NCBI GenBank assembly: GCA_902779945.1
Contig: CACZDN010000011.1
Coordinates: 1-64,000 of the forward strand
DNA: 64,000 bases
Reading direction: 5' to 3'
Source of the DNA: Oscillospiraceae bacterium
Lineage (GTDB): Bacteria > Bacillota > Clostridia > Oscillospirales > Oscillospiraceae
A program made the translations under genes and the position numbers. The notes below the pieces were generated by a model. The model was not told the DNA's origin and searched no databases. It saw nothing but the letters and a program-made list of their open reading frames with translations. Each line of letters starts with the position of its first letter. The stretch's first letter is position 1. Of the stretch, positions 51,888 to 62,979 are shown in pieces.

Positions 51888-52405
51888 GAGCCCTCGGTCA
51901 GCTTACGCCCCCGCTGCTGGTGCTGGCGGCGGCGCTGTGCGCGGCGGCCCGGGGCGCGGATGTGTACGAGGCGATGACGGCGGGCGCGAAGAAGGGGCTG
52001 CTGGTCCTCTGGAGCGTGCTGCCGTCGCTGCTGGTCATCTTTCCCGCGATCCGCCTGCTGCGCGCCTCGGGCCTGCCGGAACTGCTGGGCAGCGCGCTGC
52101 GTCCGGCGTTTTCGTGCCTGGGCGTGCCGGAGGAGACGGGGCTTCTGATGCTGCTGCGCCCCCTGTCGGGCAGCGGGGCTCTCGCCGCGGCGTCGGAGCT
52201 CATGCGGCGCTATGGACCGGACTCCCTCGTGGGCCGCACGGCGGCGGTGATGCTCGGCTCGAGCGAGACGAGCTTCTACGTGCTCGCGGTCTACTTCTCC
52301 GCCGCCGGCGCGCGGGACGACGGCCGCGCCCTCCCGGCGGCGCTGCTGGCGGACCTGACCTGCTTTCTCGCCTCCGCCTGGATCTGCCGCATATTGTGGG
52401 GGTAG
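51884..52405 (+). CDS. spmB: spore maturation protein B, probable CTG start
   Basis: About 173 residues. ADVYEAMTAGAKKGLLVLWSVLPSLLVIFPAIRLLRASGLPEL, LLRPLSGSGALAAASELMRRYGPDSLVGR and SSETSFYVLAVYFSAAG match SpmB. There is no ATG, GTG or TTG at the expected N-terminus. A CTG at 51884, overlapping the spmA stop as CTGA and 6 bases after GGAGG, gives a protein of the right length. It works with SpmA in the spore membrane. Confidence 0.87.
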   Translation: MRALGQLTPPLLVLAAALCAAARGADVYEAMTAGAKKGLLVLWSVLPSLLVIFPAIRLLRASGLPELLGSALRPAFSCLGVPEETGLLMLLRPLSGSGALAAASELMRRYGPDSLVGRTAAVMLGSSETSFYVLAVYFSAAGARDDGRALPAALLADLTCFLASAWICRILWG

Positions 52406-52555
52406 GGGAGCGGGACAGCAAAAAGCCCGTGTATTACCGCAGGGGAGGGGCCTGCCCATCCGGGTGACGCCGGCGTACAGCTCCCCGGAAATGTACGGCG
52501 CAGTCCTGTCAGGCAGCGGCACGCCGGAGGCCCGGCGGTATAACGCAGAAAATGG

Positions 52556-52606
52556 AAAACGTATGGCAAATCCGTGAAAGCTGCGGATTTGCCATACGTT
52601 TTTTGC
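52556..52606. terminator. bidirectional terminator between spmB and the flavoprotein cluster
   Basis: Perfect 19-bp stem (52556-52574 with 52584-52602) with core ACGTATGGCAAATCCG, A tract before and T tract after. Nearly the same stem sequence is used at 38536-38586. Confidence 0.9.
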
Positions 52607-52656
52607 GTTCTGCACGCTATCCCGCCGGGGATGGCGTTCCCCGCACGGCACTCTTT

Positions 52657-53847
52657 TTACATGATCGGGATTTTGATCTTGAGGTCCGTGAGGGGCCAGG
52701 AGGAGCAGGCATGGAACCAGCCCATCTCCTTGTCCATCATGCGGCGGCCGTCGCCGATCGGGGAGACGAAGATGTCGCCCGCCAGCAAATGGCTGCGGCA
52801 GAAGCCGCACTCGCCGTTGCGGCAGTGGGTGTCGATGGGGATGCCCGCCCGCTCGAGCGCGACGGCCACAGGCTCGGACGCCTTCGCGTCGATCACGTCC
52901 TCGTGGATGCCGCGCAGGACCGTGATTTTGAAGGTCTTCGTCTCGGTGCCCTTCGGGTAGCCGGGGAGGGTGGAGACGTCCGCGGGGTTATTCACCACGT
53001 CATGGCGGAAGCGGCGCACGGGCACGCCCATCTCGTCCAGGGCCTTCTTGACGAAGCGGAACATGGGCAGCGGGCCGCAGAACATGTAGGTGCAGTCCGG
53101 GGTGGAGTACTTTTCGATGATCTCCTTTGTGATAAAGCCCTTTTCGCCGGGCCAGTCCGGCTCGTCCGAGAGGACATGGACGACCTTCACATCGGGGCAG
53201 GCAGCTTCGATCTTGGCAAGCTCGTCCTTGAGGACGATGTCGTTTGCCTTCACGGAGCCGTAGAGGATCGTGAGCTTCACGCCCTTCATTTTGCCGTATG
53301 CAATCTCCTTGGCCATGGAGTGGAACGGTGTAATGCCGGAGCCGCCGGCCAGAGCCACGAGCTCCTTCGAATCGCGCAGGGGCTCCCAGTAGAAGAAGCC
53401 GAAGGGCAGCGCGCCCTCGAGCGTATCGCCGACGCTGACGTGCTCGAACAGGTAGTCGGGCACCAGATAGGGGACGTTGCGGCGCACGGTGATCTCAAAG
53501 AAGGGGTGCTCCCCCCTCGCCTCAAAGGGGGCGGAGGAGATGGTGTAGGGGCGGGACAGGACGCTCTCGCCGATCTTGAGGCGGAAGTTCACGTACTGGC
53601 CGCTCTGGAACGGGGGGATGTGGCCGTCCGCCGACTCGAAGCGGAAGATGCGGGAGGAGGGGGACGCCTCGCGGATGTCGACGACCCTGAAGAGCATGTG
53701 CTCCGGATGAAGAAGATCGGCCACCTCACGGATCGGGTCGCGGGGGTCGGGGATGGGCGAACCCTTGGCGAAGTTCTCCTCTCTGAGCTTTGTGACGCGG
53801 GAAGCGCCGCCTACGTCCTGCAGAAAGCCTTTGACCTTGATGCTCAT
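52657..53847 (-). CDS. ferredoxin-NAD(P) reductase fused to a C-terminal [2Fe-2S] ferredoxin domain
   Basis: 396 residues. An FAD-binding barrel (about 50-165) with SRPYTISSAP, an NAD(P)-binding domain (165-290) with LAGGSGITPFHSMAKE and MFCGPLPMFRF, and a plant-type [2Fe-2S] domain (310-396) with C-x4-C-x2-C in HCRNGECGFC plus the last cysteine in HACSSWP. It passes electrons between NAD(P)H and a partner through FAD and the cluster. The start overlaps the preceding flavoprotein stop (ATGA), with AGGAGG 7 bases upstream. It is the last gene of the leftward unit and probably the electron donor for the two flavoproteins encoded before it. Confidence 0.9.
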   Translation of the reverse strand: MSIKVKGFLQDVGGASRVTKLREENFAKGSPIPDPRDPIREVADLLHPEHMLFRVVDIREASPSSRIFRFESADGHIPPFQSGQYVNFRLKIGESVLSRPYTISSAPFEARGEHPFFEITVRRNVPYLVPDYLFEHVSVGDTLEGALPFGFFYWEPLRDSKELVALAGGSGITPFHSMAKEIAYGKMKGVKLTILYGSVKANDIVLKDELAKIEAACPDVKVVHVLSDEPDWPGEKGFITKEIIEKYSTPDCTYMFCGPLPMFRFVKKALDEMGVPVRRFRHDVVNNPADVSTLPGYPKGTETKTFKITVLRGIHEDVIDAKASEPVAVALERAGIPIDTHCRNGECGFCRSHLLAGDIFVSPIGDGRRMMDKEMGWFHACSSWPLTDLKIKIPIM

Positions 53848-55397
53848 TTCTTCGCCTCCTTTTTCTTTTCCAGATCTTCCTTCACAGCCTTGGCCGCAGC
53901 GCGGCCGTTGGTGATCTGGGGGCCCATGCCGTCGCCGGACATGCCGTGCGCGCCGGCGAATTCCAGACCCTCGATGAAGTGATCCTTCTCCTTCATCTGC
54001 AGCCTTGCCACCGCGTGGTCCTCCATGGAGTGGAGGTAGCCGTAGATATTGCCCTTCCAGGCCCCCACATAGTGGGAGACGGTCATGGGCGTTGTGACCT
54101 CGATCTCGGTGATGCGCTTTGTGAAGTCCACCTTGGTGATCTTGATGCACTCGTCGATCATCTCTTTGGCGAGGCGGCGCTTGAGATCGAAGTACTCGTC
54201 CTCCTTGACGCCCTCGAAGGGCTTCGAGGGAACGAGCGCCGTGATGGAAAGCTGGGTGTAGTCCTTTGGCAGACCGGGGTTTGCGTAGTTCAGGCAGATG
54301 GTGGTGATGTAGTTATAGGGCTCGGTGATGTTGGAGTAGTTCTCCCAGATCTTGTTGGTGTCCATGGTGGTGCCGGAGAAGGTGGAGTAGTTGGTGATGC
54401 CGTTTTCCTCGGGGCTGCCCTCGATGACCATGATGACCGAGACGGGGACGACGGAGAGCTTGCGATTGTTGATCATCCTGATCGCGCCCTCGGGCACCTC
54501 GCTCAGCGGCTCGATCATCTGGGTGTAGACCCTGTTGGGGTAGGCGCCGGAGATCACATAGTCGCAGTGGATCTCGTCTCCTCTCGCGGTGCGCACGCCG
54601 CAGACCTTGCCGTTTTTCACCAGGATCTTCTCGACCTCCTGGTTGAACTCGTACTGCGCGCCGTTTTCCTCGCACTTGGCCTGGAGCTTCATGCTCATCT
54701 CATGGCTGAAGCCGCGGCAGACGTAGGAGCCGGTGAAATAGTCGGCCATGAGGAAGGCGTAGATGGTGAAGGGCAGATCGTCCATGCGGTTGCCGACGTA
54801 GATCCAGTAGGGCGTCAGCATCTCGACGGCCTTCTTCGGGAGGCCGAAGGTGTTGATGACCTCGGTCGCGCTGTAGCCGACGGTCTTGACGAAGTCGGGG
54901 TGCTTGAGGAGCATCATGGGCTTCGACATGGGCGTGACGGAGAGGATGTTCATGCTGTCGTAGACGCGGCGGCAGAGGAGCATCAGCTCGTGCACCTTCT
55001 CGTAGGTGCCGGGGCAGACCTCGTTGATCTCCCTGGCGACGGTGGTGTAGCTGTCGTCGTAGTCGTGGTGGAGGATCTTGTCGATGCCGGAGTTCGGCAG
55101 GGCGACGCGGTAGCACTCGTTGACGGGCAGCCAGTCGACCTTGACGCCCATGTCGTCGAAGAACTGGCCGACCTTGAGACGCTTGCCGGGCCGGCCGATG
55201 GACATCATCTCATGGAGCGTGGCCTCGATCTCAAAGCCGTTGCGCACAAAGTCGGTGGCGAGGCCGCCGGGCATGTTGTGCTTTTCGAGAATCAGGATGT
55301 CCTTGATGCCCCAGGCCTGCAGCTGCAGGCAGGCGGACATGCCGGCCAGCGCGCCGCCGATGATGACGACGTCGTAATGGTCCTTGTAGAATTTCAT
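53844..55397 (-). CDS. FAD-dependent oxidoreductase, CrtI/phytoene-desaturase-like
   Basis: 517 residues. The N-terminal dinucleotide fold is YDVVIIGGALAGMSACLQLQ (GxGxxG modified to GGALAG) followed by LEKHNMPGGLATDF, and the C-terminal FAD motif is AGAHGMSGDGMGPQITNGRAAA. Relatives in this amine-oxidase/desaturase-like group add or remove double bonds in hydrophobic chains. Context (fatty-acid isomerase homologue, flavin-ferredoxin reductase, acyl-ACP enzymes) suggests reduction or desaturation of an acyl chain. This is inference; no substrate residue pattern was matched. Confidence 0.82.
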   Translation of the reverse strand: MKFYKDHYDVVIIGGALAGMSACLQLQAWGIKDILILEKHNMPGGLATDFVRNGFEIEATLHEMMSIGRPGKRLKVGQFFDDMGVKVDWLPVNECYRVALPNSGIDKILHHDYDDSYTTVAREINEVCPGTYEKVHELMLLCRRVYDSMNILSVTPMSKPMMLLKHPDFVKTVGYSATEVINTFGLPKKAVEMLTPYWIYVGNRMDDLPFTIYAFLMADYFTGSYVCRGFSHEMSMKLQAKCEENGAQYEFNQEVEKILVKNGKVCGVRTARGDEIHCDYVISGAYPNRVYTQMIEPLSEVPEGAIRMINNRKLSVVPVSVIMVIEGSPEENGITNYSTFSGTTMDTNKIWENYSNITEPYNYITTICLNYANPGLPKDYTQLSITALVPSKPFEGVKEDEYFDLKRRLAKEMIDECIKITKVDFTKRITEIEVTTPMTVSHYVGAWKGNIYGYLHSMEDHAVARLQMKEKDHFIEGLEFAGAHGMSGDGMGPQITNGRAAAKAVKEDLEKKKEAKK

Positions 55398-55433
55398 GTT
55401 GTCTTCCTTTCAAAAGAGGCGTTGTGACAGTAT

Positions 55434-55462
55434 ACTTGGCTCCCCCGGAGGGGGAGCCAAGT
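55434..55462. repeat. short perfect palindrome between the two flavoprotein genes
   Basis: 13-bp arms (55434-55446 with 55450-55462) around GGA, core CTTGGCTCCCCC. There is no T tract. It resembles the G/C stem of the R3 repeats and may cause mRNA processing between the two genes. Confidence 0.7.
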
Positions 55463-55471
55463 CCAAACGAA

Positions 55472-56860
55472 TCAGAAGAAACGCTCTACCAGCTCGCGGG
55501 AGTACTCGGCCGTCTCGTCCATGTCGCCGAAGGACATGACCTCGCCGGCGTAATAGGTGTCGTACTTGCCCTGCATGGCCTCGACCTTGTCGTACCAGCC
55601 GGCGGCGTAGTCCTCGGAGAAGACATGGGGGAAGTAGTAGACGGACCACTCGTTGACGACGTTGGAGGCGGGGTTGTGCATGGTCTTGAGATCGTCCAGG
55701 ACCATCTTTTTGCAGGTGTCGTAGGGGATCTCCGCCATGTTCTTGTGCTTGCGTAGGGCGTAGGTGGTGATGACCTGGTTCACCTCGTCCTTCCAGCGGC
55801 GGTAGTAGACCATCAGGCGGCCCAGCTTCTCGGGCACCATGTTGTCGAAGACGTAGTAGGAGATCTCCGGGTGGTCCTGGGGCTTGGTCTCGACGGCCAG
55901 CACGTCGTAGCGCTCGTAGTCGATTTTGGAGAAGAGCTTCTGCTCGTCCTCTCGGGCATCGAAGTACTCGACCATGCCCTTCTGCCCGTCGCTGCGTTTG
56001 TTGGGAATGTAGAGCGGGGCGGTGACGATGACCTTGTCGAACTCCTCGACCTTGCCGTTCACCGTGATGTAGACCTTGCCGTCCCTGCGCTCGACCTTCT
56101 CGATGGCGGAGTTGAGGCGGGCGGGGTGCTTGAGATGCTCGTTGAGCTGCTCCCAGATGTACTGGGTGCCGTTCTTCCAGGTCCAGAGATTGACCTTGAC
56201 GAAGTTCATGCAGGTCTGGAAGTCCAGATACTTGAGGACGTAGGCCGCGGGGATTTCGTCAAAATAGCCGTAGCCGAAGGAGGTGAAGGGTCCGATCCAG
56301 ATCTTCTGCACGAGGGGGACACCGTTCTTCTCGCAGAAATCCCTGAAGGGCATGCACAGGTCCTTGAGATTGGGGTTCTCGCCCTGGACCCGCTCACGGC
56401 CGGGGGTGACCGCGTAGCCGTCGTAGCGGCCCTCGGCGACGCCGCGGTGGCCGTTCACGTCATAGCCCTTGTACTTGGTCTCCAGCAGCTCGCCGAAGGT
56501 TGTGAGCTGCTTTTTCATCTTGAGCAGCCAGGGGTTGCGGATGATGTTGCCGAGGGTGCGCGCGAAGGGCTCGATCACGTTGCCCTGCGCGTCCTTGTAG
56601 TTGCGGTTGAGCTTGGGGCCGTCGTGCGTGATGCCGCAGAACTTCTCCACATCCTCCACGGCGTAGTAGGAGGGAACACCCATGATGGCGCCCATCTCAT
56701 AACGTCTGCCGTTGTAGTGGGGAGACCAGCACTTGCCGCCGACGCGGTCGAGGCGTTCAAAAATGGTGTAGTTCTCGTAGCCCTTTTTCTCCAGGTACAT
56801 GCCCGCGGACAGACCGGCAGGGCCGCCGCCGATGATTGCGATGCGCGTGTTTTTGTCCAT
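55472..56860 (-). CDS. FAD-dependent polyenoic fatty-acid isomerase-like protein
   Basis: 462 residues. The FAD fold RIAIIGGGPAGLSAGMYLE is followed by DRVGGKCWSPHYNGRRYEMGAIMGVPSY, FTSFGYGYFDEIPAAYVLKYLDF and YYFPHVFSEDYAAGWYDKVE. These blocks and the overall length resemble the Cutibacterium acnes polyunsaturated fatty-acid (linoleate) isomerase, from memory of that family. That enzyme moves a double bond of a free fatty acid through hydride transfer on FAD. The start at 56860 lies 6 bases after AGGAGG. First gene of the leftward unit. Confidence 0.85.
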   Translation of the reverse strand: MDKNTRIAIIGGGPAGLSAGMYLEKKGYENYTIFERLDRVGGKCWSPHYNGRRYEMGAIMGVPSYYAVEDVEKFCGITHDGPKLNRNYKDAQGNVIEPFARTLGNIIRNPWLLKMKKQLTTFGELLETKYKGYDVNGHRGVAEGRYDGYAVTPGRERVQGENPNLKDLCMPFRDFCEKNGVPLVQKIWIGPFTSFGYGYFDEIPAAYVLKYLDFQTCMNFVKVNLWTWKNGTQYIWEQLNEHLKHPARLNSAIEKVERRDGKVYITVNGKVEEFDKVIVTAPLYIPNKRSDGQKGMVEYFDAREDEQKLFSKIDYERYDVLAVETKPQDHPEISYYVFDNMVPEKLGRLMVYYRRWKDEVNQVITTYALRKHKNMAEIPYDTCKKMVLDDLKTMHNPASNVVNEWSVYYFPHVFSEDYAAGWYDKVEAMQGKYDTYYAGEVMSFGDMDETAEYSRELVERFF

Positions 56861-56941
56861 ATTGCCCTCCTGATTGTGTAAAAATTTGAAGTCGTTGTTC
56901 ACGCTATCCTTCTATGTTAAATATACAGCGAAGCGCCGCAA

Positions 56942-56966
56942 TTTGCATTATACAATTCCATGCAAA
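56942..56966. promoter_or_regulatory. candidate operator TTTGCAT-N11-ATGCAAA
   Basis: Perfect 7-bp inverted repeat (56942-56948, 56960-56966) covering the -10 and spacer of the leftward promoter. Confidence 0.6.
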
Positions 56967-56973
56967 GTGTCAA
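56947..56973 (-). promoter_or_regulatory. promoter of the leftward flavoprotein unit
   Basis: Minus strand -35 TTGACA (56968-56973) and -10 TATAAT (56947-56952), both consensus, but with a 15-base spacer. The short spacer suggests a weak or regulator-dependent promoter. Confidence 0.75.
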
Positions 56974-57000
56974 ATTTTATGCAACATGCAGAAAAATCTC

Positions 57001-57018
57001 TTTGCAATCGCCTGCAAA
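57001..57018. promoter_or_regulatory. candidate operator TTTGCA-N6-TGCAAA
   Basis: Perfect 6-bp inverted repeat sharing the half-site of 56942-56966 and covering the -35 and spacer of the rightward promoter. Confidence 0.6.
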
Positions 57019-57029
57019 TATGGTATATT
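57002..57029 (+). promoter_or_regulatory. promoter of the acyl-ACP unit
   Basis: -35 TTGCAA (57002-57007), 16-base spacer, -10 TATATT (57024-57029), about 60 bases before the ligase start. Confidence 0.65.
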
Positions 57030-57090
57030 ATTATTGATATAGTATCACCGGATTCTGTCCCGGTGTTTTTCCCGGAAAGGGGGCGACTGC

Positions 57091-58440
57091 TTGCGATTTG
57101 ATTCCTTTTCCCACATGCTCCGCTACAGGGCGGAGCGCGCGCCGTCGCATCCGGCGCTCGTCTATGACGAGGGCGGACGGCGGGAGCTGAGCTACTCCGC
57201 GCTGGAGAGCGCGGTGGAGGAGCGCGCCGGGGCGCTGCGCCGGGACGGCGGGAGCTGCATCGGCATCCTTGCGGACGGGAGCGCTGCGTGCGTCATCGAG
57301 ATCTTTGCCGCGGCCCGCGCGGGGCTCCAGACCGTCATGCTCGACGCCGCTCTCCCGGAGGAGACGCTGAAGGCTCTGCTGCGCTACACGGACGCGGACC
57401 GGCTCTGGGGCGACGCGGACCTGTGCGCGGAGCTGAAGGACGCGCTCACTGGCGGCGTGAAGGACGGGGCGGGGAAGCTCCTCTTCTTCACCTCCGGCAC
57501 GACGGAGGCGTCCAAGGCCGTCGTGCTCACGGATCACAGCCTCTGCCAGAGCGCCTGGAACGGCGGGGAAAAGCTGCCTCTCACGCCGGAGGATACGCTT
57601 TTGTGCCTGCTGCCGCTGGGCCACGTGTTCGGCTTCGTGTGCGGCCTTCTCTGGGGGCTGAGCTGCGGTGCCGCTGTCGCCCTCGGGCGCGGGGCGCGGC
57701 ACTACGCGGACGACTGTGATTTCTACAGGCCCACCGCCGTGTCTGTGGTGCCGCTGCTGCTGGACTTCTTCCTCCGGCGCGGCCTCTTCAACCCGGAGCT
57801 GCGGCTGGTGCTGGTCGGCGCGGGGGACTGCCCGCAGGCGCTGCTCGCCGCGGCGGCGGCGAAGGGCCTGCGTGTGAGCTTCGGCTACGGCCTGACCGAG
57901 ACGAGCTCCGGCGTGGCGATCAGCGTCTCGGACGACCCCTTTGCGATGGAGGTCTGCCCGGACGACCGTATCACCCTCGCCGAGGACGGGGAGATCCTGA
58001 TCGAGGCCCCCACCTGCATGATGCAGGGCTACTACAAGCGCCCGGAGGACACCGCCGCTGTGCTGCGTGGGGGCGTCCTGTACAGCGGCGACCTCGGCCG
58101 CTTCGATGAGGACGGCAGGCTCCGCATCACGGGCCGCAAGAAGGACATGCTGGTCCTGCCGGACGGCACCAAGCTCTTCCTGCCCGAGTACGAGGGCGAG
58201 ATCATGCGCGCCCTCGGCCATCAGGAGCTGGCGGTCGTGCTGAAAAACGCCCGCCCCGTGCTTGTCTGGTCCGGCGGGGGGGATGCGAAGGAGCTCGAAA
58301 AACGCCTGCGCCCGCTCATGGCCTCCCAGCCCCGGGGGCGCCAGCTCGCCGGGGTGTACGTTGTCAACCACCCGCTGCCGCGCACCGCTACGGGTAAAAT
58401 CAAACGTTGGGAACTCCAACAGGAAACGGAGACATTATGA
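57091..58440 (+). CDS. acyl-AMP ligase / acyl-ACP synthetase (ANL superfamily)
   Basis: 449 residues from TTG 57091 after AAAGGGGG. Adenylation motifs: A3 LFFTSGTTEASKAVVLT (Glu replaces the usual Gly after TSGTT), A5 FGYGLTETSSG, A7 YSGDLGRFDEDGRLRITGRKKDML, and A10 PRTATGKIKRWEL with the catalytic lysine. It is shorter than most ANL enzymes (500 or more). It should activate a carboxylic acid with ATP and transfer it to the carrier protein encoded next, whose start overlaps its stop (ATGA). The acid is unknown; the neighbourhood suggests a fatty acid. Confidence 0.87.
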   Translation: MRFDSFSHMLRYRAERAPSHPALVYDEGGRRELSYSALESAVEERAGALRRDGGSCIGILADGSAACVIEIFAAARAGLQTVMLDAALPEETLKALLRYTDADRLWGDADLCAELKDALTGGVKDGAGKLLFFTSGTTEASKAVVLTDHSLCQSAWNGGEKLPLTPEDTLLCLLPLGHVFGFVCGLLWGLSCGAAVALGRGARHYADDCDFYRPTAVSVVPLLLDFFLRRGLFNPELRLVLVGAGDCPQALLAAAAAKGLRVSFGYGLTETSSGVAISVSDDPFAMEVCPDDRITLAEDGEILIEAPTCMMQGYYKRPEDTAAVLRGGVLYSGDLGRFDEDGRLRITGRKKDMLVLPDGTKLFLPEYEGEIMRALGHQELAVVLKNARPVLVWSGGGDAKELEKRLRPLMASQPRGRQLAGVYVVNHPLPRTATGKIKRWELQQETETL

Positions 58441-58688
58441 CAAGAGAAGAAGTACTTGAAAAGATCCGCCAGGTCATTCGCGACTGCGTGCCCGAGATGG
58501 TCAGCAGCGACCTCCGGGAGGACACCGTCATCAACACCGAAACCGCCATCGACTCCATGGGCTTCATCCTGGTCATCTGCCGGCTCGAGGCGCTGTTCAA
58601 CGTGCGCATCCCCGAGCGCCAGTGGAAGAAGCTCTCCACCATGGGCGATGTGGCCGACGCCGTCTTGAAGGCCCTGCCGAAGGAATGA
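58437..58688 (+). CDS. acyl carrier protein
   Basis: 83 residues. Ser in AIDSMGF is the expected phosphopantetheine site (usual motif DSL). The protein has acidic helices and the usual length. Its ATG overlaps the ligase stop and its own stop overlaps the thioesterase start (both ATGA), so the three are made together. It is a dedicated carrier and not the housekeeping ACP, which normally sits with fab genes. Confidence 0.88.
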   Translation: MTREEVLEKIRQVIRDCVPEMVSSDLREDTVINTETAIDSMGFILVICRLEALFNVRIPERQWKKLSTMGDVADAVLKALPKE

Positions 58689-59395
58689 ACATCTATACGA
58701 CGCAGCTTCGCCTGCGCAACAAGGACGTGAACCTCCATCGCCGCCTGCGCAGCTCGGTGTTGTTTGAGCTGCTGCAGGAGGCCTCCATCCGCCACACCGA
58801 GGAGCTCGGCATGGGCCGCGAGATGACGCTGGACCGCGGGCTGCTCTGGATGGTCACGCTCCAGCGGGCCGAGATCGCGCGTATGCCCGCATACGACGAG
58901 TGCGTCACGGTCGAGTGCTGGCCGGGCGAAACCATGCACCTGCTGTTCCCGCGCTACTACCGCCTGCTGGACGAAGAGGGGCGCACCCTCCTCTCCGCGA
59001 GCGCGCTGTGGGCGCTGGTGGATCAGCAGGCGCGGCGCATGATCTTCCCGGACCGCTACGGGATCACGATTCCGGGCATCACGACCGGGAACGAGATCGC
59101 CCTGCCCGCCCCGCCGCGCTCTGCGTGCGGGGATCGGGTCACGGCCTTTACGGTGCCCTACAGCTATGTGGACCTGAACGGCCACATGAACAACACCCGC
59201 TACTTCGATCTGGCGGAGGACCTGGTCCCCGCCGTGCGCGAGGGGCGGGCTCTGCGCGAAATCGCCGTCGAGTACGCCAACGAGGCGAAGCTCGGCGATG
59301 AGCTTCGCGTCACGGTCGAGCAGGACGGAGAGACCTGGCGCGTCAGCGGCGACACCGAACGGAAGATATTCCGCATGGCCCTGCGCTACGAATAA
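58685..59395 (+). CDS. acyl-ACP thioesterase (FatA/FatB family)
   Basis: 236 residues, a double hot-dog of the PF01643 type: LFELLQEASIRHTEELGMG in the first half and YSYVDLNGHMNNTRYFDLAEDL in the second, where N-x-H-x-N-N is the active-site region. It hydrolyses acyl-ACP to free acid, here presumably releasing the product of the cluster. Start overlaps the carrier stop. It follows ligase and carrier, which together define a load-process-release cycle. Confidence 0.9.
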   Translation: MNIYTTQLRLRNKDVNLHRRLRSSVLFELLQEASIRHTEELGMGREMTLDRGLLWMVTLQRAEIARMPAYDECVTVECWPGETMHLLFPRYYRLLDEEGRTLLSASALWALVDQQARRMIFPDRYGITIPGITTGNEIALPAPPRSACGDRVTAFTVPYSYVDLNGHMNNTRYFDLAEDLVPAVREGRALREIAVEYANEAKLGDELRVTVEQDGETWRVSGDTERKIFRMALRYE

Positions 59396-59415
59396 ACACA
59401 CGGAGGAGAGAGATC

Positions 59416-62097
59416 ATGGCACATCTGAGACCGAAAATTGTCAAGCTCTGCCACGTCATCGGCGGCATTTCCGGCGTCGTCAACAAGATCGACGAAAACG
59501 CCCCCGAGTACTACAGCCTCGCCGGCATCGTCAGCGACGACGAGGCCGACATCGCCATCGCCGCCGGCCTGCGCAAGGAGAGGACCGCGGGGTGGCTGGC
59601 CAAAAAGGTCGGAAAGAGCGTGGAGGAGATCATGCCCGCGCTCGACAATCTCGTGAGCTACGGCGTCTTCCGCCGCACCTACAGCGAGAAGGACGGGCAG
59701 GACGTCTACTACATGCAGATCTTTGCCCCCGGCATCCTCGAAATGATGGTCAACAACGTGGAGCTTCTGAGGACCCACCCCGAGGTGGGCCGCGCCTTTG
59801 AGGAGTATACACGCCTGCGTATGCAGACCATGGGCCCCATCCTGCCGGACGGCTACGGCCTGATGCGCGTCATCCCGGTGGAGAGCGCCATCGAGGGCAT
59901 CCCCGGCGTGAGCCCCTATGAGAGACTCAGCTACTATCTCGACAAGTACAAGACCTTCTCCGTCTCCCCCTGCTCCTGCCGCGCCTCCCGCACCAGCATC
60001 GGCGACGGCTGCGGCCATCTGGACCGGGAAATGTGCATCCAGATGGGCAAGGGCGCGGAGCACTACATCCGCTCCGGCCGCGCGCGGCAGATCACCAGGG
60101 AGGAGGCGCTGGAGATCATCAGGCGGGCCGAGGAGAACGGCCTCATGCACGACATCCCGAACATCGAGGAGGCGGGCGACTCCGCCGCCATCTGCAACTG
60201 CTGCTCCTGTGCCTGCTTCGGCCTGCGCGCGGGGCTGATGTTCGGCGCGCGCGACGCCATCCGCTCCAACTTCGTGGCGGTGGTGGACGAGGCCAAATGC
60301 GTGGCCTGTGCCCAGTGCGTGGAGAACTGCCCGGCAAACGCGCTCAAGCTCGGCCAGAAGCTCTGCTCCTCCGAGGAGATCCCCGTGCCCGAGTACGCCT
60401 CCATCGTCAATACCTTCAACTTCAAAAACGCCTTCAACCCCGACTACCGCGAAAACCGCGAGGACGTGCTGCCCTCCGGCACCGCGCCGTGCAAAACGGC
60501 ATGTCCCGCCCACATCGCGGTGCAGGGCTATCTCAAGCTGGCCGCCCAGGGCCGCTATACCGACGCGCTGGAGCTCATCAAGAAGGAAAACCCCTTCCCC
60601 GCCGTCTGCGGCCGCATCTGCAACAAGCGCTGCGAGGCCGCGTGTACCCGCGGCGGCATTGACGAGGCCGTCGCCATCGACGAGGTCAAGCGCTTCATCG
60701 CCGACCACGATCTGAACGAGGCCACCCGTTTTGTCCCGAAGATGCTCAACCAGACCGGCACGCCCTTTGAGGAGAAGATCGCCGTCATCGGCGCGGGCCC
60801 CGCGGGCATGAGCTGCGCCTACTACCTCGCCAACAGGGGCTATCCCGTCACCGTCTTCGACAAAAACCCCGTGCCCGGCGGTATGCTGGTGCTGGGCATC
60901 CCCGGTTTCCGCCTTGAGAAGGACGTGCTGAACGCCGAAATCGACATTCTCAGAGAGATGGGCGTCGAATTCAAATGCGGCGTCGAGGTCGGAAAGGACG
61001 TATCCATCGCCGAGCTGCGTCAGCAGGGCTACCGGGGCCTCTATCTCGCCATCGGCGCACAGAAGTCCGCCCCCCTGAACATCAGCGGCGAGGAGCTCGA
61101 GGGCGTCTGGGGCGGCGTGGAATTTTTGCGCCGCGTGAACCTCGGCGAAAAGCCGGCGATCGGCAGACGCTGCGTCGTCATCGGCGGCGGCAACGTCGCG
61201 ATGGATGTGTGCCGCACGGCCGTGCGCCTCGGCGCGGAGGAGACCACGGTGCTCTACCGCCGCACGGAGGCCGAAATGCCCGCCGATCCCGACGAGGTAA
61301 AGGAGGCCATGCGCGAGGGCGTGAAGTTCCGCTTCCTCGTCTCTCCCGCCGAAATCACCGGCGAGGACGGGAAGGTCAGGCAGCTCCGGGTGGAGCTCAT
61401 GGAGCTCGGCGCGCCCGACGAGAGAGGCCGCCGCAGGCCCGTCGGCACCGGGCAGTACGAGCTTATCGACGCGGACAGCGTGCTCTCCGCCGTCGGCCAG
61501 CAGGTCGACTGGGGCGGGCTCGACGTCGGCGCGCTCCAGAAGCGCAAAAACGGCACAGCGGAGGCAAACGAGCTCACCTGTCAGTCCGCCGAGCCCGATA
61601 TCTTTGTCGGCGGCGACGTGTTCACCGGCCCGAAGTTTGCCATCGACGCCATCGCCGCCGGCAAGGAGGCCGCCATCTCCCTGCACCGTTATGTCCACCC
61701 CGGCCAGACCCTCACCATGGGCCGCGACCGCCGCATCTACCGCGAGCTCGACAAGGAGCACGCCCTCGTCTCCCTCGGCGGCTTCGACAGCGAGCGCCGA
61801 CAGGAGCCCGGCTACAACGAAGCGAAGGCCAGATCCTTCTCCGATGCGCGCCAGACCTTCACCGAGGAGCAGGTGCGCAGGGAGTGCGCCCGCTGTCTCG
61901 GCTGCGGCGCGACGAAGGTGGACGAATATCTCTGCATCGGCTGCGGCCTGTGCACCACCAAGTGCAAGTTCGACGCCATCAAGCTCAAAAAGGTCCGCGA
62001 CTGGCACGCCGGCGCCTTTGAGACCATGCCCATCAAGGTCGCCGAGGGTCTTGTCAAACGCACCGGCAAGATCATCCGCAACAACCTCGGCAAATAA
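59416..62097 (+). CDS. large Fe-S flavoprotein: N-terminal Fe-S domain fused to GltD/NfnB-like NAD(P)H oxidoreductase
   Basis: 893 residues. An N-terminal winged-helix-like region (1-110) precedes a cysteine-rich module (175-275: SPCSCRASRTSIGDGCGH, ICNCCSCACFG) and a 4Fe-4S ferredoxin motif (CVACAQCVENCPANAL). The GltD-like part (about 355-800) has GltD-type cysteines (CPAHIAVQGYL, CGRICNKRCEAAC), FAD site IGAGPAGMSCAYYLANRG and NADPH site VIGGGNVAMDVCRTA. The end has CLGCG and CIGCGLCTTKCKFDAI. It likely moves electrons between NAD(P)H and ferredoxin or a partner. Own RBS GGAGGAG. Its place after the thioesterase suggests it powers the cluster, but it could be independent. Confidence 0.85.
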   Translation: MAHLRPKIVKLCHVIGGISGVVNKIDENAPEYYSLAGIVSDDEADIAIAAGLRKERTAGWLAKKVGKSVEEIMPALDNLVSYGVFRRTYSEKDGQDVYYMQIFAPGILEMMVNNVELLRTHPEVGRAFEEYTRLRMQTMGPILPDGYGLMRVIPVESAIEGIPGVSPYERLSYYLDKYKTFSVSPCSCRASRTSIGDGCGHLDREMCIQMGKGAEHYIRSGRARQITREEALEIIRRAEENGLMHDIPNIEEAGDSAAICNCCSCACFGLRAGLMFGARDAIRSNFVAVVDEAKCVACAQCVENCPANALKLGQKLCSSEEIPVPEYASIVNTFNFKNAFNPDYRENREDVLPSGTAPCKTACPAHIAVQGYLKLAAQGRYTDALELIKKENPFPAVCGRICNKRCEAACTRGGIDEAVAIDEVKRFIADHDLNEATRFVPKMLNQTGTPFEEKIAVIGAGPAGMSCAYYLANRGYPVTVFDKNPVPGGMLVLGIPGFRLEKDVLNAEIDILREMGVEFKCGVEVGKDVSIAELRQQGYRGLYLAIGAQKSAPLNISGEELEGVWGGVEFLRRVNLGEKPAIGRRCVVIGGGNVAMDVCRTAVRLGAEETTVLYRRTEAEMPADPDEVKEAMREGVKFRFLVSPAEITGEDGKVRQLRVELMELGAPDERGRRRPVGTGQYELIDADSVLSAVGQQVDWGGLDVGALQKRKNGTAEANELTCQSAEPDIFVGGDVFTGPKFAIDAIAAGKEAAISLHRYVHPGQTLTMGRDRRIYRELDKEHALVSLGGFDSERRQEPGYNEAKARSFSDARQTFTEEQVRRECARCLGCGATKVDEYLCIGCGLCTTKCKFDAIKLKKVRDWHAGAFETMPIKVAEGLVKRTGKIIRNNLGK

Positions 62098-62438
62098 TGC
62101 ACGAGCTCGGCATCTGCGACGCCATCCTGAAAACCGTGGACGGCATCGCCAAAGAGGAACAGCTCACGGCGGTCTACAAGGTCACCCTCGAGGTGGGTAT
62201 GCTCTCGGGGGTGGTGCCCCGCTTTCTCACCGACTGCTGGGCCGCCGTCGTGGACGGCACGCCCTACGCGGACACGACCCTCGCCATCGAGACCGTCAAC
62301 GGCCTGGCAAGGTGCGAGGACTGCGGACACGAATTCAGCGCCGACCTGGAAAAGCTCTGGTGCCCCAAATGCGCGGGCCGAAGGCTCACCCCGCTGACCG
62401 GCACGGACCTGACCATCAAGGAAATCGAAGCGGACTGA
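62097..62438 (+). CDS. hypA: hydrogenase/urease nickel incorporation protein HypA
   Basis: 113 residues. The N-terminus MHELGICDAIL supplies the nickel ligand His2, and two C-x-x-C pairs (CEDCGH, CPKCAG) form the zinc site. It delivers nickel to [NiFe]-hydrogenase or other nickel enzymes. The ATG shares an A with the stop of the preceding gene (TAATG). No hydrogenase or other Hyp gene is in the window. Its nickel link recalls the CooC-type ATPase at 3293-4057, but the distance makes a connection speculative. Confidence 0.93.
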   Translation: MHELGICDAILKTVDGIAKEEQLTAVYKVTLEVGMLSGVVPRFLTDCWAAVVDGTPYADTTLAIETVNGLARCEDCGHEFSADLEKLWCPKCAGRRLTPLTGTDLTIKEIEAD

Positions 62439-62532
62439 ATAACCCCCATGTCATTCTGAGGCGCGAAGCGGCGAAGAATCCGGATCGCCGCCGCGTCGGG
62501 AGGACATGGCAGCCATGAAAGGAGCAACAAGC

Positions 62533-62979
62533 ATGACACTGGAAGAAAGACAGGCCGCCGCGCCGCGTTCGGCCTGCGGCTACTGCATGGGCGGAGAGCT
62601 GCTCGACGCCTTCGGCATCAAAATCTGCGAGCTCTCTGTCAGCACGCTGATCCTGTTCAAGGAGCAGAGCCACCCCGGCCGCTGCATCGTGGCCTATAAG
62701 GACCACGTCAGCGAGATCACCGACATCTCGGACGCCGAGCGCGACGCCTTCTTCGCCGACGTGAACCGCGCGGCAAAGGCCATCCACGCGGCCTTCCATC
62801 CGGAAAAGCTCAACTACGGCGCCTATGGCGACACGGGCTGCCACCTGCACATGCACCTCGTGCCCAAGTACCGGGACGGCTTCGAGTGGGGCGGCGTCTT
62901 CGCCATGAACCCCGGCAGGGTCTATCTCTCCGATGCGGAATACGCCGCCATGATCGAGAAGATCAAAGCGGCACTGTAA
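62533..62979 (+). CDS. HIT-family protein
   Basis: 148 residues. The histidine triad is CHLHMHLVPKY near residue 105, and SHPGRCIVAYKDHVSEI is the family middle. HIT proteins hydrolyse nucleotide conjugates such as AMP-amino acid or dinucleoside polyphosphates. The start at MTLEER (62533) follows AAAGGAG by 8 bases. A degenerate R1-like half repeat (about 62450-62470) lies between hypA and this gene. Confidence 0.9.
   Translation: MTLEERQAAAPRSACGYCMGGELLDAFGIKICELSVSTLILFKEQSHPGRCIVAYKDHVSEITDISDAERDAFFADVNRAAKAIHAAFHPEKLNYGAYGDTGCHLHMHLVPKYRDGFEWGGVFAMNPGRVYLSDAEYAAMIEKIKAAL

Follow-up and report, generated by a model that had tools for sequence, protein, structure and literature searches.

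The 64,000-nucleotide stretch analysed here (the window; positions 1 to 64,000 of contig CACZDN010000011.1, assembly GCA_902779945.1, Oscillospiraceae bacterium) carries a gene cluster with a candidate role in the conversion of polyunsaturated fatty acids (PUFAs). It encodes a polyunsaturated fatty-acid isomerase homologue (PAI), a CrtI-like flavoprotein (CRTI), an FAD-[2Fe-2S] reductase (RED), an acyl ligase (LIG), an acyl carrier protein (ACP), a thioesterase (TE) and a GltD-like flavoprotein (GLTD), and belongs to a genome of 2.87 Mb in 39 contigs (Table 1). A preliminary description, made from the window alone, had placed these seven genes in two divergent units; all seven are present on either side of the intergenic region, with the domains claimed, and the ATGA overlaps described for the ligase-ACP-thioesterase series (LIG/ACP and ACP/TE) can be read from the sequence, as can that of CRTI/RED. 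Its gene list missed a HypA-family gene, which is joined to the end of GLTD by a TAATG overlap. The hairpin beyond RED is likely to mark the end of the minus-strand unit. No known RNA, riboswitches included, matched Rfam at the gathering threshold in 52300-62600.

Table 1. Features of the candidate PUFA cluster and its surroundings in the window.
Feature	Position	Strand	Remarks
Terminator-like hairpin	52557..52601	.	20-pair stem and T tail, directly 3' of RED; consensus scan only
RED, NAD(P)H-FAD-[2Fe-2S] reductase, 396 aa	52657..53847	-	Pfam FAD_binding_6, NAD_binding_1, Fer2
CRTI, CrtI-like flavoprotein, 517 aa, candidate reductase of the conjugated chain	53844..55397	-	
PAI, polyunsaturated fatty-acid isomerase homologue, 462 aa	55472..56860	-	
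Divergent intergenic region, 230 bp, promoter-like elements	56861..57090	.	
LIG, AMP-forming acyl ligase, 449 aa, TTG start	57091..58440	+	PF00501, E 8e-41
ACP, dedicated acyl carrier protein, 83 aa	58437..58688	+	NCBIfam models, E down to 4e-11, below cut-off
TE, acyl-ACP thioesterase, 236 aa	58685..59395	+	PF01643, E 8e-19
GLTD, GltD/Nfn-like FAD and 4Fe-4S protein, 893 aa, optional companion	59416..62097	+	PF14691, PF07992, Fer4
HypA-family metallochaperone-like protein, optional companion of GLTD	62097..62438	+	PF01155, E 6e-31

PAI matches the isomerase of Propionibacterium (Cutibacterium) acnes (2b9w) over its full length in both sequence and fold, with 51% identity. The gate residues of 2b9w, which we take to be numbered Arg88, Phe168 and Phe193, correspond to Arg86, Phe195 and Phe220 of PAI. 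These were kept in 64/64 sequences of the co-evolution set, which holds 64 sequences per gene and retained 63 of the 86 loci described below, a locus being dropped if any core gene was covered at 85% or less. The proposal of a polyenoic fatty-acid isomerase homologue is borne out by these features, which support membership of PAI in the polyunsaturated fatty-acid isomerase family. Since the P. acnes enzyme converts linoleate to trans-10,cis-12 conjugated linoleic acid (CLA), the product isomer of PAI would by precedent be trans-10,cis-12. Plasmid carriage was rejected, the sole match at E 1e-20 or better being a Photobacterium sequence with 27.5% identity.

The nearest solved chain to RED is benzoate dioxygenase reductase (1krh), and the four cluster cysteines, the flavin-motif Arg99 and the nucleotide-motif glycines were kept in 64/64 sequences. 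CRTI shows a CrtI-type fold and a dinucleotide-binding motif, with Gly14, Gly15 and Gly19 likewise kept in 64/64. It shares this fold with the phytoene and carotenoid desaturases of the CrtI family, its closest solved fold being a carotenoid desaturase, but differs from them in its low identity (15% to 4rep) and in the FAD-2Fe-2S reductase gene that adjoins it. Twenty CRTI orthologues (at least 78% identity) were counted, leaving out 39 listed paralogue places (26-36%), of which 13 were inspected together with one from another search. Adjacent CrtI-like and RED-like pairs also occur outside the PAI cluster (L148-L158, e.g. L149:302-7706), so the pair appears as a recurrent redox module; the paralogous loci may represent a second, uncharacterised redox system.

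The three remaining core proteins resemble the general kind of acyl-AMP ligase, ACP and thioesterase sets, including their key residues, but have an isomerase with a CrtI-type redox pair as partners in place of a synthase. AMP-forming ligases are marked by a TSGTT motif and a catalytic lysine; in LIG, Thr134-Ser-Gly-Thr and Lys436 are invariant in 64/64 sequences, and each TSGTT position is kept in 63 or 64 of the 64. The phosphopantetheine site of ACP, Asp39-Ser40, is invariant in 64/64, while the protein matched no Pfam family and all its NCBIfam acyl carrier protein matches lay under their cut-offs. TE, with 2own as nearest solved chain, retains Asp163, Asn165, His167 and Glu200 in 64/64, and DxNxH...E is the motif of acyl-ACP thioesterases. 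Among loci uncut by contig ends, LIG-ACP-TE was seen only alongside both PAI and CRTI-RED, and in the stretches read it was seen neither beside PAI alone nor beside CRTI paralogues; this distribution supports a carrier step.

To survey the neighbourhood in other genomes, 84,980 named species genomes were scanned, and 355 stretches were found to encode a PAI relative (two peptide patterns were used, and a gene may have been counted repeatedly). The best 80 of the 355, which over-represent close relatives and include some contigs of the 20-stretch genus set below, were combined with six loci from wider searches to give 86 loci. All six genes from RED to TE are present in 67 of the 86; in another 15 the contig ends on the side where genes are missing, and 4 are truly without some of the genes. 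Co-location of the six genes is far beyond chance. The preliminary description had suggested a gut-bacterial system and named homologues that are not co-located as evidence against it; the neighbourhood search returned a conserved set instead. What did not stand is the set of seven, as GLTD is not fixed within it. The outcome is a six-gene candidate that accompanies, within the limits of the contigs, at least 80 PAI genes from uncultured genomes.

Within the genus, PAI with at least 75% identity was present in 23 of 37 genomes, compared to 0 of 23 other-family genomes in the same search (the raw tally of 49/60 includes FAD-motif matches, and 23 is taken as the true count). In twenty genus stretches the six genes are found up to the limits of the contigs; the exception is L048 (G016), in which PAI is interrupted, CRTI is a fragment and LIG is absent. 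Across the 37 genomes, PAI and LIG occur both in 22, PAI only in 1 (G016), LIG only in 0 and neither in 14; for PAI and CRTI the corresponding counts are 18, 5, 2 and 12, and four of the five PAI-only cases end within PAI at a contig end, the fifth being G016. Outside the genus PAI is rare, with 2/391 class genomes and 1/398 phylum genomes at E 1e-40 and 6/200 genomes of the family of G447 at E 1e-30, counts that include the own genome and the centre of the search. The Fisher tests and the co-evolution analysis draw on related genomes and related loci respectively, and their numbers are not independent; many genomes are incomplete metagenome-assembled genomes (MAGs), and some are possibly mis-binned (Coriobacteriales L071, Sphaerochaetaceae L127).

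The set is retained at 38-67% identity in L141 and was found in another family of the class in L145. PAI-CRTI-RED stands without the LIG trio at its side in L115 and L140, whose genomes carry a LIG orthologue elsewhere (62% and 66% identity). L143 and L144 have PAI without the other five genes, and their genomes contain neither a CRTI orthologue nor a LIG orthologue, the best LIG matches reaching 28%. The shared divergent region proposed earlier is usual, with PAI and LIG less than 1 kb apart in the window and 73 loci, but not obligatory: all six genes run in one direction in L142, and the LIG side lies ~7.4 kb from the PAI side in L033. The ~7.4 kb between LIG and PAI in L057 (2607-10001) hold apparently unrelated genes, by eye cyclase-like, FecR-like, HD-domain and hydrolase-like. 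Beyond the core and GLTD, no further conserved gene was seen in 20 loci, where the gene caller chose long antisense frames and a small gene could be missed. No publication describing the gene set was found in the open-access literature, judged mostly by titles and the start of abstracts; the set is real and conserved and, to the extent of these searches, undescribed.

The titles of the best 80 records point to the source of these genomes: 32 name ruminants (29 RGIG records giving species and organ, one sheep and two red deer), 35 are RUG or Tb.RUG, which we take to mean rumen uncultured genomes, 3 are RUI and 10 are uninformative. The set is strongly linked to ruminants. Butyrivibrio is the best known biohydrogenator, and a 16S pattern for it matched 0 of 397 genomes, so no Butyrivibrio was recognisable. 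The ruminant source fits the reported role of uncultured Clostridiales, Ruminococcaceae and Lachnospiraceae, which may dominate ruminal biohydrogenation (Huws 2011, as cited in the excerpted text of PMC5880937).

Partial correlation of the protein-distance matrices, given the other four genes, is high for RED-CRTI (0.76) and LIG-TE (0.66) and 0.35 or less for all other gene pairs; the set thus consists of two separately co-evolving halves. PAI is the most uniform protein, with a median pairwise identity of 0.855 versus 0.53-0.63 for the other genes (CRTI 0.605). Its divergence at fourfold sites (0.42) comes close to that of CRTI (0.46), which indicates constraint more than recent spread. Recent transfer is accordingly not favoured as the cause of the high identity, and the slightly lower value for PAI leaves some transfer possible.

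On balance, we favour the reading that the cluster equips anaerobic gut bacteria with a pathway that isomerises and reduces PUFAs (biohydrogenation). PAI, by homology, would bind a free linoleate-type acid and, using FAD, shift one of its double bonds so that a conjugated diene results; LIG would then use ATP to load the acid onto the cluster's own ACP. Electrons would pass from NAD(P)H through the FAD and 2Fe-2S centres of RED to CRTI, which would saturate one bond of the conjugated acyl-ACP, and TE would free the trans-monoene for disposal. The host might benefit through detoxification of plant PUFAs and through an electron sink. The isomerase is well-founded, while the reductive, carrier-bound pathway is plausible but unproven. 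For ruminal biohydrogenation of PUFAs, from linoleate by way of a conjugated diene to a monoene, the gene content and the ruminant origin of the records are indirect indications.

Several points weigh against such a pathway. CrtI-type enzymes are chiefly desaturases or isomerases, with retinol saturase as a precedent for saturation; carrier loading and hydrolysis spend ATP, which is odd for mere detoxification. PAI appears interrupted in G002, G016, L045 and L046 (in two pieces in the last two), a sign that some genomes may have lost the set or had it wrongly assembled. The best 80 records are all titled MAG or uncultured, and no isolate with the cluster was identified. In one study, Oscillospiraceae tended to fall with the trans-10 shift (P 0.074; PMC9853040, excerpted text). 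P. acnes PAI functions without ligase, ACP or CrtI, and acts on linoleic acid when expressed alone in other hosts, as reported in PMC2885616; CRTI-RED paralogues are without LIG-ACP-TE in the stretches read, so the redox module does not as a rule depend on an ACP; and the co-evolution of the halves, which stand ~7.4 kb apart in L057, is separate. These last three points equally favour an alternative that we take seriously but consider unlikely, in which PAI and CRTI-RED act on free acids and LIG-ACP-TE works in parallel, for example by securing the product for membrane lipids or by editing the pool of activated acids. Against it stand the pairing of PAI and LIG in the genus (22/1/0/14), a trio seen neither with PAI alone nor beside CRTI paralogues, and the thioesterase, which opposes capture for lipids.

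It is improbable that CRTI works oxidatively, desaturating an ACP-bound chain to conjugated trienes or another polyene while RED regenerates the flavin. Carrier-tethered desaturation is common in biosynthesis and the closest solved fold is that of a desaturase, but the anaerobic hosts (as judged from kinship and gut origin) and the dedicated NAD(P)H reductase suggest that electrons are fed in, and no further conserved gene family surrounds the set in the 20 loci, some frames of which were mis-called. We give little credence to a role in making trans fatty acids for the host's own membrane under stress, with isomerisation as the main purpose and CRTI-RED adjusting bond position. The documented toxicity of PUFAs to one rumen bacterium (PMC2836310) would fit such a role, but an acid-freeing thioesterase is not needed for membrane incorporation and no acyltransferase is conserved with the set in the same 20 loci, with the same mis-called frames. 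Action of the flavoproteins on non-acyl substrates such as amines or carotenoids seems very improbable, although Pfam places both PAI and CRTI in the Amino_oxidase family; the conserved neighbours of the CRTI genes are genes of acyl-chain chemistry.

If the biohydrogenation pathway is correct, the set would supply genes for a conversion of fats that influences milk and meat. A more specific version can be offered only tentatively: uncultured rumen bacteria would carry out carrier-bound biohydrogenation, in which PAI conjugates, a private ACP holds the chain, CrtI-RED half-saturates it and the product is released, and if PAI had the specificity of the P. acnes enzyme, they would be the long-sought source in the rumen of the trans-10 fatty acids linked to milk-fat depression. 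The product of Butyrivibrio fibrisolvens is cis-9,trans-11, unlike that of the P. acnes enzyme. According to published work, rumen bacteria forming trans-10 intermediates have not been unambiguously identified, only C. acnes doing so among 28 species tested (PMC7339423), and such rumen strains are hard to find (PMC11770317); Lachnospiraceae NK3A20 and the [Eubacterium] coprostanoligenes group are among the markers reported for the trans-10 shift (PMC9853040).

The chemistry proposed for the set, isomerisation followed by reduction with NADH, is in outline that of the linoleate isomerase and CLA (rumenate) reductase of B. fibrisolvens. In the literature, Butyrivibrio is stated to have no linoleate isomerase gene (PMC6249431), and rumenate reductase to be missing from KEGG, COG and Pfam, with NADH and rumenate at 1:1, although Fukuda 2007 reported a sequence for the B. 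fibrisolvens CLA reductase (as cited in PMC4478896). The CLA-HY/DH/DC/ER system of Lactobacillus plantarum is likewise multi-enzyme and converts linoleate to conjugated acids and a monoene, but passes through hydroxy and oxo acids (PMC13365329, excerpt), and no such enzymes are among the six genes. In C. acnes, CLA is described as the end product (PMC7339423, excerpt), whereas the window ties the isomerase to a carrier system as well as a reductase pair.

The intergenic region carries a promoter-like TTTGCA-17-TATATT at 57001-57029 (+), on the LIG side. Across the PAI-LIG intergenic regions of the window and 73 loci, TTTGCA is enriched (36, where simple letter shuffles average 5.7), and 41 of the 74 regions contain TGTATAAT in one orientation or the other; both may be merely promoter parts. 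No regulator was identified. Between this site and the start of LIG, a hairpin followed by a T run at 57046-57065 has the look of a leader terminator; nothing similar was evident by eye in the other intergenic sequences listed.

GLTD lies by RED in 25 of the 86 loci, by TE in 7 and elsewhere in 10, and is unseen in the stretch in 44, some of these stretches being cut short and many not; a seven-gene core was rejected on this count. Because GltD-like proteins also occur in the CRTI-RED paralogue clusters, GLTD is at most an optional electron supplier. A HypA gene adjoins GLTD copies in L148, L149, L151, L152 and L160, and in L148 and L149 CrtI copies flank the GltD-like and HypA genes; GLTD and HypA are not core to the set. 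PAI homologues of ~52% identity lie near GltD-like and HypA genes in L143 (4258-10580) and L144 (6525-12147), stretches without CRTI, RED, LIG, ACP or TE that present a simpler PAI context. The N-terminal ~280 residues of GLTD, ahead of its Fe-S and GltD-like domains, have no Pfam match. Many frames of ~900 residues with a GLTD-type FAD motif appeared in the genus search, which suggests several GLTD-related copies per genome.

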